A stretch of DNA of 36,165 nucleotides from Pseudomonadota bacterium (GTDB lineage: Bacteria > Pseudomonadota > Gammaproteobacteria > GCA-001735895). Of this stretch, positions 5,026-8,930 are shown piece after piece. Every line of letters starts with the position of its first letter. The stretch's first letter is position 1. The stretch is taken from assembly GCA_022566015.1 (NCBI GenBank), contig JADFJT010000018.1, positions 1 through 36,165 on the forward strand, written 5' to 3'. The position numbers were made by a program, and so were the translations under genes. Under the pieces are notes generated by a model that was not told where the DNA came from, made no database searches, and saw nothing but the letters and a program-made list of their open reading frames with translations.

Positions 5026-6251
5026 GATACTGATGAGATGGACACGCTCCTGATAAACGGCTCATCATAGCCAGGAAAGAAGCGTTAAATTCAATCCACA
5101 GGAGCATGTCCATGAACAAGACTAATACAATCGGTATCGACCTGGCAAAGAATGTTTTCCACCTATGTACGCAGGATAGCAATGGCCATATTCTTTCCAG
5201 ACTGAAACTCGGGCGCAGCCAGCTGAAACATTTTCTCGCAACGACGGCGCAGAGCAGAATAGTCTTCGAGTCCTGCGCCACTGCGCATTACTGGTCCAGA
5301 ATTGCCGAATCGCATGGTCATCAAGTAGCGCTCATCCATCCAGGCTACGTCAAGGCCTATGTAAAAACCAATAAGAATGATTTTAATGATGCCGAGGCCA
5401 TCTGCGAAGCTGATAGTCGCCCGACGATGCGTTATGTTAATTCTAAAACGATCAATCAACAGGATATTCAACTGTTGCATCGAATCCGGCAAAGACAGGT
5501 ACAGCAACGTACCGCATTGGTGAATCAAATCCGTGGGCACTTGCTCGAATATGGTATCACCATTCCTCAGGGCGTGAGTCGAGTCCGACATCAGCTATCG
5601 GGCATTTTAGAAGATGCTGAGAATGAACTGAGCTGTCAGGCCAGAGTGCTGTTTCGTGAATTGCAGTTAGAGCTATATGATCTGGATGACAGGATCCAAC
5701 AGGCCGACAGAAAGATAAAGCGCCTGGCGACACAAGATCTTGTCTGCCAGCGTCTGATGGCGATACCGGGTATCGGGCCGATGATCGCGACGGCACTGGT
5801 AAGCACGGTTGGCAATGCCAATCATTTTAAAAACGGACGGGAACTTTCGGCCTGGCTGGGGTTGGTACCCAGACAATACTCAACTGGTGGTAAGCAGCGG
5901 TTGCTGGGTATTAGCAAACGAGGTGATTGCTATCTTCGTTCACTGCTAGTTCAAGGTGCCATTTCAGCCATCACACGAAGTAAAAACCGATCTGACAATC
6001 AGTTAACCTGGGCTCGGCAATTAAAGGTAAACAAAGGTTTGAAAAAAGCAGCGGTGGCTTTATCAAACAAAACGGCACGGATCATCTGGTCGGTGATGGC
6101 GAAAGACCATGACTATGTCGTACAGCAGTAAAACTCGTTCTTGAATCAACTTATCTGAGGTTAGCGCTACTGAATGATTTAACAGGTTAGACCGACGCCT
6201 TGCAGGATCTGCGATGGGGTTAGGTACTGAACGTACCGTGATACTGATGAG
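5026..6251 (+). mobile_element. IS110/IS1111-type insertion sequence
   Basis: The transposase gene 5106-6131 lies between two copies of GATACTGATGAG, at 5026-5037 and 6240-6251. Removing one copy and everything between them rejoins a minus-strand open frame in phase (…APHQY to RLKFSFF…) and a plus-strand SnoaL/DUF4440-like remnant. These are therefore good boundaries for an element of about 1.21 kb. IS110-family elements usually make no target duplication, so the repeat may be target/core sequence shared by both junctions. The right end carries a small hairpin (GGTAC/GTACC, 6223-6237). In IS1111-group elements the non-coding end next to the transposase encodes the bridge RNA that guides insertion. 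Here the longer non-coding end is 6132-6239. Confidence 0.75.
5106..6131 (+). CDS. IS110-family transposase (DEDD recombinase, IS1111 group-like)
   Basis: The 341-residue protein is of normal length for the group. It has an N-terminal RuvC-like DEDD domain (IGIDLAKNVF with Asp12, FESCATAHYW, KNDFNDAEAI) and a C-terminal Tnp_20 domain with IPGIGPMIATALV. The catalytic-serine region is PRQYSTGGKQRLLGISKRG. All expected motifs are present and the frame is intact, so the element may be active. ATG 5106 is preceded by CAGGAGC; an in-frame ATG two codons later is possible. It moves the element by site-specific recombination guided by an element-encoded bridge RNA, as known for this family. Confidence 0.95.
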   Translation: MSMNKTNTIGIDLAKNVFHLCTQDSNGHILSRLKLGRSQLKHFLATTAQSRIVFESCATAHYWSRIAESHGHQVALIHPGYVKAYVKTNKNDFNDAEAICEADSRPTMRYVNSKTINQQDIQLLHRIRQRQVQQRTALVNQIRGHLLEYGITIPQGVSRVRHQLSGILEDAENELSCQARVLFRELQLELYDLDDRIQQADRKIKRLATQDLVCQRLMAIPGIGPMIATALVSTVGNANHFKNGRELSAWLGLVPRQYSTGGKQRLLGISKRGDCYLRSLLVQGAISAITRSKNRSDNQLTWARQLKVNKGLKKAAVALSNKTARIIWSVMAKDHDYVVQQ

Positions 6252-6583: not shown

Positions 6584-6703
6584 TTACCCTTACTGATGTT
6601 CCTTTTTCTCCAAAGGAGACGCTCGTAGGTGCTACCTGGGCGACTGCCTTCGGCACACAGCGGTCATTCGTATCAATTAATGATATGCCTCCCTTCGTTC
6701 CTC

Positions 6704-7615
6704 CTAGACACTAAATTTCTTTAGCGCATCAATAAGCCAGTCACGGAAGGAAATTAGCGCTTTATTCGGACGGGCATTAGCAGGTGATACAAAATAGCAA
6801 TTAAATGGAGCTGGAATGGGCTCGGGATTAGCGTAATCAATTTTCCTTGATTCAATTTCTTCTTCCATTAGATAACTCGGAATTAATGCGATACCTCGCC
6901 CAAGCAAAGCAGCGTTTAATGTCTGGTCGTGATCTGGAAAGACTTCGAGGTGGACTTCGGGGTCGATTTGATGACCTGATACGACATCCTGCCATCTTGT
7001 GCGCAATGCCCTGACTTCTTTTGTATTATAGTATTCATCGATAAGACGGTGCTTACCAGGTTCTGCAAGTGATTCGAGTTTTCCGTGCTCGGCGATATAG
7101 GCGGGGCTTGCCACTGCAAATATTTGCGTATGAAAAAGCAGCACGCTATCAAGACCATCGAAACCGTCTTCACTATCACTAAATCGAATTGCTCCATCGA
7201 TCCCGTCATTCTGAAAGGTCACCAGCTTGAGGCTTTTATCTATAGCAACTGTGACGTCTGGAAATGACTCATAAAATCTCGCCAAATTTGGCATTAACCA
7301 TTTCGCTGCGAAACTTGGCCCCGTCGAAATCGTGAGCTTACGTTGGGTTTTAGTTCTTGCAACTTCCCTTGCCGCAAATCCAATTTCACCTAATGATTGT
7401 TGGACAACAACAGCAAATGCCTCACCTTCTTCCGAAAGGGTGAATGAATTGGGCGCGCGGATGAACATTTCGCGACCGAGATGATCTTCTAAATTCCGCA
7501 ATTGTTGACTCACCGCACCCTGGCTAACGCAAAGCTCTTCGGCGGCCTTGCTTACGCTACCAAGTCTTGATACAGCTTCAAAAGCCCTCAGGGCGTTCAT
7601 TGGCGGTAGTTTCAT
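6704..7615 (-). CDS. LysR-family transcriptional regulator, GcvA-like
   Basis: DNA-binding regulator of 304 residues. The N-terminal winged helix-turn-helix covers residues about 5-62 (MNALRAFEAVSRLGSVSKAA, then VSQGAVSQQLRNLE), and the LysR substrate-binding domain fills the rest (ISTGPSFAAKWLMPNLARF is GcvA-type). The start at 7615 is preferred over an upstream in-frame ATG at 7678 because GGGAG lies just before it and MKLPPMNALRAF is the family's usual N-terminus. It is divergent from the small gene at 7779, which is its most likely target together with its own promoter. The inducer is unknown. Confidence 0.92.
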   Translation of the reverse strand: MKLPPMNALRAFEAVSRLGSVSKAAEELCVSQGAVSQQLRNLEDHLGREMFIRAPNSFTLSEEGEAFAVVVQQSLGEIGFAAREVARTKTQRKLTISTGPSFAAKWLMPNLARFYESFPDVTVAIDKSLKLVTFQNDGIDGAIRFSDSEDGFDGLDSVLLFHTQIFAVASPAYIAEHGKLESLAEPGKHRLIDEYYNTKEVRALRTRWQDVVSGHQIDPEVHLEVFPDHDQTLNAALLGRGIALIPSYLMEEEIESRKIDYANPEPIPAPFNCYFVSPANARPNKALISFRDWLIDALKKFSV

Positions 7616-7688
7616 TGAGCTCCCATTTAAATCTAATGAGCCTATCCGAATAACTGCATGTACAAATTCCAGTGCCAAAGCAATTATA

Positions 7689-7715
7689 CGCTAACTTAAA
7701 TCAACATCGTTAGCG
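7689..7715. promoter_or_regulatory. Inverted repeat in LysR divergent promoter region
   Basis: Perfect 7-bp arms CGCTAAC and GTTAGCG are separated by 13 bases, in the intergenic stretch between the LysR gene and the small divergent gene. A third half-site-like AGCTAACG lies at about 7756. Size and place fit a LysR operator, but binding is inferred. Confidence 0.45.
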
Positions 7716-7778
7716 CGACTAAATACCGCAACAAATTTGAATAAAGCAGTCACAGCTAACGATAAAGGAGAAGATATA

Positions 7779-8018
7779 ATGCAGCAGGTAGACTTAATTC
7801 AACTGATACCGAAAGTCTCAACAATATTTAACAGAGTAATACGCTTCTTTGGTAGCTCTCGACTTACAACCCCTCAGCCCGACCAGGGTCTAAGCAAAAT
7901 TGACTGGCCTGACTCCGACTCCAAACAACCTTACCGAGGGGATTATGAACAATCCATCAGTGGTGGGTATAACGAGGCGTTCATCGTCCAGTACTGGACC
8001 AGTTATCACCTCAATTAA
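7779..8018 (+). CDS. Small unknown protein divergent from LysR regulator
   Basis: The start is the ATG at 7779, preceded by AAAGGAG with 9-base spacing; an in-frame ATG at 7737 lacks a ribosome site. The product is 79 residues: a hydrophobic/amphipathic N-terminus (MQQVDLIQLIPKVSTIFNRV), then a polar Pro/Asp/Tyr-rich half ending YWTSYHLN. There is no signal peptide cleavage site or clear transmembrane helix, and I recognise no family. The strong Shine-Dalgarno and the divergent placement next to a LysR regulator make it a likely real, regulated gene. Confidence 0.6.
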   Translation: MQQVDLIQLIPKVSTIFNRVIRFFGSSRLTTPQPDQGLSKIDWPDSDSKQPYRGDYEQSISGGYNEAFIVQYWTSYHLN

Positions 8019-8100
8019 TGAAGTTACTCACACATGAAGTAGCGTAAAAGCGAGCGGATTTATTTAATATAAAATGGCAATTGAAAGTCCGCTATGGGCA

Positions 8101-8316
8101 GATACTGTTGAAAAACTCCAAATATTTCTAGACAGCAAAATTATTTACACCGTAACGACTTTAAAATTTTAATACACGGGGAGAGACATATAACTAACGA
8201 TCTCTTCCGACAGAGCTACTAGTGAGCTTACATACTAATTGCTATAAGAAGTGCAGAATGCTTTGGATTTCTGCAGGAAAACAGCTCTCTGTTTTTTCGA
8301 GTTTTTCAACAGTATC
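8101..8316. mobile_element. 216-bp MITE-like element with 18-bp terminal inverted repeats
   Basis: The left end GATACTGTTGAAAAACTC (8101-8118) and the right end GAGTTTTTCAACAGTATC (8299-8316) are perfect inverted repeats. They are flanked directly by GGCA at 8097-8100 and GGCA at 8317-8320, a 4-bp target duplication. The 180-bp interior carries no convincing gene. Ends of the type GAGTTTTTCAACAG are, as I recall, common among IS5/IS1182-like elements, so this is probably a non-autonomous derivative moved by such a transposase. An 89-codon open frame starting at 8222 runs out of the element and is not credible. Confidence 0.8.
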
Positions 8317-8510
8317 GGCACATTTCAGCCATTTGAATGACGAGTCAACCCAAAAATATAAAACCAATTCAATATTGCAGACCAGAGGTCAGGTCCAAGT
8401 TTTAGAATGTCTTGAAAAATTCAGGGAGCACAATACTCGAAGCTTTGCCCGAGGCAAGATTTCAGTATTGCGCCCCGGAATTGAAATTTAATCGGACGTG
8501 TCGAAGCTTT
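8317..8510. other. AT-rich intergenic DNA after the MITE
   Basis: Nothing supported is seen here. The plus open frame that covers it begins inside the MITE with GTG, lacks a ribosome site, and has low-complexity composition. Confidence 0.4.
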
Positions 8511-8930
8511 TCAGTCCACTTTGATCATCAAGGGTTTGCCGATCTCCCCTACCTGGAAGACCAGGATTTCAAGGTCATCAGATGAGCTTAAATTTTTGCC
8601 AACCATCGCAGTATTCATATCTTCGGGATACATTTCTCCCGCCTTAAAGGTTTTAGTTTCATCATCAAGGACCACCGTAAGCTCACCCTCCAACACGTAC
8701 ACAAATACAGGCCCAGGATGCATATGCTTGCCGCCAACATATCCAGGTGGGATCGCGAAGTGAACAACCATCATTTCTTTGCCCTCTGCGCCAGGCAGAG
8801 GAGCCTGGTGTAGTATCTTCTTTGTCACTTTTGGGACGTATTCTTGAGCACTTGCTGCTTGGAAATTGACTATTCCCGTTAATATGAACGATGCCAGTAC
8901 GGTTCTGATTATATAATTTGCTTTCATCAT
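8511..8930 (-). CDS. Secreted single-domain cupin protein
   Basis: Periplasmic small beta-barrel protein, 139 residues. Residues 1-28 are a Sec signal peptide ending ASA before QEY. The cupin motif 1 is GYVGGKHMHPGP, with His69 and His71 as likely metal ligands; the usual Glu a few residues later is replaced by hydrophobic residues, while VLEGELTVVL continues the fold. Motif 2 is weak. AAGGAGG lies right before an ATGATG pair, so either Met could start it. The metal and substrate are unknown; relatives include quercetinase-like and sensor cupins. It is a single gene with no operon partner. Confidence 0.85.
   Translation of the reverse strand: MMKANYIIRTVLASFILTGIVNFQAASAQEYVPKVTKKILHQAPLPGAEGKEMMVVHFAIPPGYVGGKHMHPGPVFVYVLEGELTVVLDDETKTFKAGEMYPEDMNTAMVGKNLSSSDDLEILVFQVGEIGKPLMIKVD

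Follow-up and report, generated by a model that had tools for sequence, protein, structure and literature searches.

A gene-less IS1182-type MITE and IS1182 elements with the same ends at a common symmetric target site

The MITE and its surroundings

The window, i.e. the whole stretch of DNA that was analysed (36,165 nucleotides), contains a gene-less 216-bp element at 8101-8316. A LysR-like gene (6704-7678, minus strand) lies on one side and a cupin-like gene (8511-8930, minus strand) on the other, both names resting only on a reading of the translations. The immediate surroundings are without long frames; a short frame at about 7780-8019 is visible in the sequence as a candidate gene only. 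Further upstream, an IS110-family transposase gene (5106-6131, plus strand; NF033542, 327.2 bits) is bracketed by the direct repeat CGCATGCAGTCGGACAAA, which lies around 4828 and again around 6570. The features of the locus are as follows.

6638..6669, no strand: uninserted REP-like palindrome of the target kind, GGCA-centred, 2 mismatches from the target consensus
8083..8096, no strand: left arm of the symmetric target site; arm plus duplication ranks in about the top 0.05% relative to random sites by the IS-end profile
8097..8100, no strand: GGCA target duplication, left copy; identical 4-bp flanks in 19/24 complete copies
8101..8316, no strand: MITE body, 216 bp, gene-less; perfect ends, 91% identical copy on contig 42, relatives in 13 other genomes of the genus
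8101..8118, plus strand: left terminal inverted repeat, 18 bp; same ends on the IS1182 element of contig 68
8299..8316, minus strand: right terminal inverted repeat, 18 bp; same ends on the IS1182 element of contig 68
8317..8320, no strand: GGCA target duplication, right copy; identical 4-bp flanks in 19/24 complete copies
8321..8334, no strand: right arm of the symmetric target site; same IS-end profile test as for the left arm

A first-pass annotation made from the sequence had described a non-autonomous MITE without a gene, with perfect 18-bp ends and a 4-bp target duplication, and in these points we agree with it. The end sequence GATACTGTTGAAAAACTC is found at 8101-8118 (plus strand) and 8299-8316 (minus strand) with 0 mismatches; these are its only two matches in the whole window at up to 3 mismatches, and none of 100 shuffled sequences gave any match. 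At 90% complementarity the inverted repeat reaches 29 nt. GGCA is present at 8097-8100 and again at 8317-8320, the interval 8097-8320 thus comprising the 216-bp element and both copies of the duplication. The ORF list of the window holds no frame of at least 100 aa overlapping 8101-8316.

An RNA or regulatory function of the element was considered and rejected: the MITE has no Rfam match, no promoter-like site was found in 7690-8520, and the single terminator-like site of that interval (8088-8102) overlaps just the first two bases of the MITE. Folded as a single strand, the MITE is far more stable than shuffled sequences (z -6.16), mainly through its paired ends, which form a long helix. In a comparison of nine copies from several species, the helices of its interior are weakly conserved.

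Copies, partner IS and distribution

Further copies are present in the own genome (2.97 Mb in 197 contigs). Contig 42 carries a second MITE copy, 91% identical and flanked by TGCC duplications, and contig 10 a diverged copy of 216 bp; single ends lie inside contig 112 and on contig 114, the latter running off the contig end. Contigs 10, 112 and 114 represent a MITE subfamily, the contig 10 copy being about 90% identical to those of 112 and 114 over 118-128 bp. When up to 3 mismatches are allowed, the end sequence is found 19 times in this genome and the reversed control 2 times; ten of the 19 matches to the end sequence are perfect or have a single mismatch.

A full-length element with these ends and an intact transposase frame is also present. 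It lies on contig 68 (127-1717, 1591 bp), is bounded by the end sequences GATTCTGTTGAAAAACTC and GATACTGTTGAAAAACTC, is flanked by duplicated TGCC and encloses an open frame of 460 aa. The predicted protein matches the IS1182 family transposase model NF033551 with E 1.3e-123 (413.5 bits, cut-off 270) and also the Pfam models DUF772, DDE_Tnp_1_6 and DDE_Tnp_1. In an alignment of nine proteins, the acidic positions which we take to be the DDE triad are present in the contig-68 protein; one other protein (L141) has K in place of the last E of the presumed triad, where the remaining eight have E. Judged by its sequence, the contig-68 element is an IS1182-family partner with ends matching those of the MITE. 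The first-pass annotation had left the type of the ends at IS5/IS1182, and it is the IS1182 half which stands. The contig-68 transposase does pass one IS5-named model (NF033581, 146.3 bits, cut-off 140), but its score with the IS1182 model is far higher, on which ground an IS5 affiliation was rejected, and the plasmid-borne relatives described below are annotated as IS1182 family. We regard ends belonging to an IS5-family element as very improbable.

The element at 8101-8316 thus is short, has no transposase gene, carries inverted ends between duplicated target bases, recurs in further copies and coexists with an autonomous element with the same ends; it belongs to a real MITE family. That its ends could be an inverted repeat arisen by chance, with no mobile element involved, is refuted by the copies, several of which have different flanks, and by the partner IS, in addition to the 0 matches in 100 shuffles, and we give this reading practically no credence. 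The MITE and the contig-68 IS have only their ends in common (18-19 bp). As nothing is common beyond them, an origin of the MITE as a simple deletion derivative of this IS is unsupported.

With a threshold of E 0.001, the MITE has matches in 14 of 57 genomes, own included; relatives are found in 13/30 other genomes of the genus vs 0/26 outside it, the match in one of them (G026) covering 39 bp only. The end sequence is present in 18 of the 31 genus genomes and 0 times in every control. The transposase is rarer. It was detected at E 1e-60 in 3/31 genus genomes, with 20 matches in G029 alone, and at E 1e-120 in 4 of the 369 genomes of a class-wide sample, own included. A missing transposase means little here, because many genomes lie in hundreds of contigs, which hides repeated IS copies. 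By positions, G029 corresponds to scaffolds of the Olavius algarvensis Gamma 3 endosymbiont, and it has many IS1182 copies (L072-L086). Several of these are internally shortened, with lengths from 993 to 1587 bp across copies and with intact ends and duplications; they have the appearance of intermediates between IS and shorter, non-autonomous elements.

The age of the insertion is a separate matter. From the perfect ends and duplication the insertion had been called recent, a claim that we cannot uphold: the sole close copy is about 9% different, yet ends and duplications are unspoilt in both, so the state of the ends gives no date for the insertion. At E 1e-15 an orthologue of the neighbouring cupin gene was found in none of the 30 other genus genomes (1/31, the window's own), and no empty orthologous site was available for comparison. 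The MITE might even be a relic that dates from an old insertion, is moved by no transposase any more and has been kept by chance or for a function of a conserved interior. This would fit the divergence of its closest copy, the 70-76% identity of copies of other species to each other and to the window MITE, and the lack of a close transposase in most host genomes. It fits poorly with the perfect 18-bp ends, with the presence in this genome of an intact frame for a matching transposase, and with an interior that has no Rfam match and no inner helix kept well across species. We consider a relic doubtful.

A symmetric target site and palindromic repeats

The first-pass annotation had overlooked that the element sits in a symmetric, REP-like target site of a kind which the IS also uses. 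We compared all 24 complete copies with pairable ends, 10 MITE and 14 IS. The flanking 4 bp are identical in 19 of them and differ by one base in 3; in L053 the duplication agrees (TACC on both sides) if the right end is read one base further, and in L132 the flanks differ. Beyond these 4 bp, the left and right arm of an insertion can pair at a mean of 6.4 of 14 positions; the value is 5.4 when arms from different insertions are combined and 3.4 at random sites. The observed sum of arm pairing was reached by 53 of 20,000 permutations. Two arm positions are prominent, being paired in 19 and 21 of the 24 copies. When read outward, the ends of IS and of MITE lead to one consensus, approximately GGCC...A.C.G.C..TC, in which AGC is clearer for the IS ends; the common symmetric site of IS and MITE is approximately GA..G.C.GCT...[KGCM]...AGC.G.C..TC, and the 4 bp at its centre are those that become duplicated.

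A profile was trained on 36 IS ends only, and MITE ends were scored against 20,000 random positions of the loci analysed. Before the ends were counted, two right ends of L075, the L057 end and a chance second match in L065 were dropped, as were L083, L084 and L088 as duplicates of L077, L079 and L080; L051, L060, both L053 ends and L132 were kept despite their poor fit. Above the 95th percentile of random sites lay 30 of 34 MITE ends (p 5e-20), or 28/34 (p 2e-16) when the duplication was left out, p values that are too small because the ends are not fully independent, several coming from one genome. The remaining 4 of the 34 do not fit the profile. Both ends of the window MITE score within the top 0.1%.

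More distant relatives were examined in the same way. For plasmids, we tested IS1182 elements of about 65% identity from Pseudomonas, Azotobacter and Aeromonas, eight of the 15 hits listed, with 1921 records counted. All 16 ends (13 distinct) of these eight lie at or above the 99.3rd percentile, and GGCC stands on both sides in 7/8, the eighth having GGCC and GATT. Their target arms pair at only 4-9 of 14 positions. For three relatives from the class, 5/6 ends lie at or above the 99.1st percentile and the sixth (L140) at 84.1. Taken together, there is good support for IS and MITE preferring a symmetric site with particular letters. Two of the plasmid-borne IS1182 relatives come from Pseudomonas aeruginosa: L191 adjoins sul1 and a beta-lactamase gene, L196 an integron integrase gene, and their left flank is common to both.

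The symmetric consensus was also used to search genomes. At up to 2 mismatches it has 3 sites in the own genome vs 0 in the control, one of them the uninserted site at 6638-6669 in the window, and 51 sites vs 0 in G046, a genome of another family (e.g. GAACGTCTGCTTTCGGCCGAAAGCAGACGTTC). The G046 sites belong to a dispersed palindromic repeat, each being a near-perfect palindrome of 32 bp of the GAATGTCCGCTTTCGGCC type. A GGGCAC-centred form occurs five times in the own genome vs 0 in the control. The 146-bp stretch around one of these sites has matches in 10 places of that genome, itself included, and three of the five loci are closely alike in their downstream sequence. Over the 31 genus genomes the enrichment of the symmetric consensus is modest (23 vs 12 in controls). 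The own genome therefore supports a reading of the target sites as REP-like repeats, and the genus does so to a lesser degree. With a plain palindrome pattern, matches were fewer than with its reversed control in 30 of the 31 genus genomes and equal in number in one; as it never exceeds the control, palindromy alone is not enriched.

These data bear on whether the transposase reads letters or shape. It might recognise a hairpin or cruciform whatever its letters, as is reported of IS1272, the common letters then stemming from hairpins of one repeat family. The permutation result speaks for such a reading, the arms of one insertion pairing together more than with those of other insertions, and IS1272 of the same family targets inverted repeats without common sequence (PMC5678879, PMC4923244). 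However, arms of different insertions still pair better than random ones, and therefore the letters are common; moreover, the plasmid relatives keep the letters even where their arms pair poorly, and the plain palindrome pattern is not enriched. Recognition of structure irrespective of letters thus appears improbable.

A sequence-guided insertion and its known relatives

The best explanation, and in our view a very probable one, is an IS1182-family MITE which is moved in trans via the common ends into the centre of a symmetric site with a 4-nt stagger, the sites being partly REP-like palindromes. An IS1182 transposase, such as the 460-aa one of contig 68, would bind the common 18-bp ends and move the MITE in trans, which the common target preference supports indirectly. 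The symmetric site would be cut in its middle with a 4-nt stagger, so that strand transfer would turn its central 4 bp into the flanking duplication, and a transposase dimer meeting a symmetric target would account for the symmetry. In the own genome the target sites would be supplied, at least partly, by dispersed extragenic (REP-like) palindromes, which may act as a harmless landing place. Points against this explanation are that MITE and IS are alike in their ends only; that a close transposase was found in just 3/31 genus genomes, perhaps because assemblies are broken; that the genus-wide enrichment of the target site is modest and the plain palindrome pattern not enriched; and that 4 of the 34 MITE ends fall outside the profile.

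Beyond this genome, we lean towards a wider rule, put forward with some reserve: this IS1182 branch would recognise the letters of a site of about 32 bp with two-fold symmetry around GGCC, and would duplicate the 4 bp at its centre. The site would coincide with a dispersed family of gammaproteobacterial extragenic palindromes as landing sites for IS and MITEs; on plasmids, other symmetric sites would be used. Sequence is favoured over structure because the letters come back on plasmids whose target arms pair poorly (4-9 of 14 positions), but the permutations allow structure a share in target choice. Such a target rule is simple, predictive and testable, and if it is true, the landing places of such MITEs and IS copies become predictable.

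Published work already includes IS1182-type MITEs that duplicate 4 bp and IS1182 members that aim at palindromes. MITEPye1 of Paracoccus yeei is gene-less, has 18-bp IS1182-like ends and 4-bp direct repeats, and occurs in 1-3 copies per chromosome, mostly intergenic (PMC11578231). It resembles the window MITE in ends and 4-bp repeats and has another host; the likeness is one of description, and no target consensus was found in the accessible text. ISPse1, an IS1182-family element of Paracoccus seriniphilus (1653 bp, 16-bp ends, 4-bp duplication), resembles the contig-68 IS in size class, ends and duplication and differs from the window MITE in being autonomous (PMC3281130); no description of its target was found in the accessible text.

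IS1272 and TnSha1, IS1182-family elements of staphylococci, remove the target hairpin and duplicate nothing (PMC5678879, PMC4923244). Here, in contrast, the arms stay, the 4 bp are duplicated and the letters are common. Replacement of a hairpin does not agree with identical 4-bp flanks in 19/24 copies and symmetric arms on both sides. Loop duplication is foreseen as a possible outcome in a drawing in PMC5678879, and palindrome-aiming IS1182 members are credited to a review by Siguier and colleagues (PMC5678879, PMC4923244). If the rule is true, sequence-guided insertion with duplication of the centre stands in contrast to hairpin replacement within the same family.

The other comparison is with IS that target REP sequences, among them ISPsy8, ISPa11, ISPpu9 and ISRm22, which insert at a set position within dispersed extragenic palindromes (PMC1525189). 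They belong to the families IS3, IS110, IS4, IS256 and IS5, and the term IS1182 occurs 0 times in that paper. The IS1182 insertions described here occupy the fixed centre of a symmetric site; a repeat of this kind is seen in the own genome and in G046, the genus-wide enrichment of such sites being modest (23 vs 12). If the rule is true, IS1182 joins the families using REP-like sites. A literature search which included the palindrome cores, most subscription journals being outside its scope, found no published description of the target consensus. New with respect to all these systems is the target consensus common to IS and MITE, and its well-defined target rule is the most useful part of this work.
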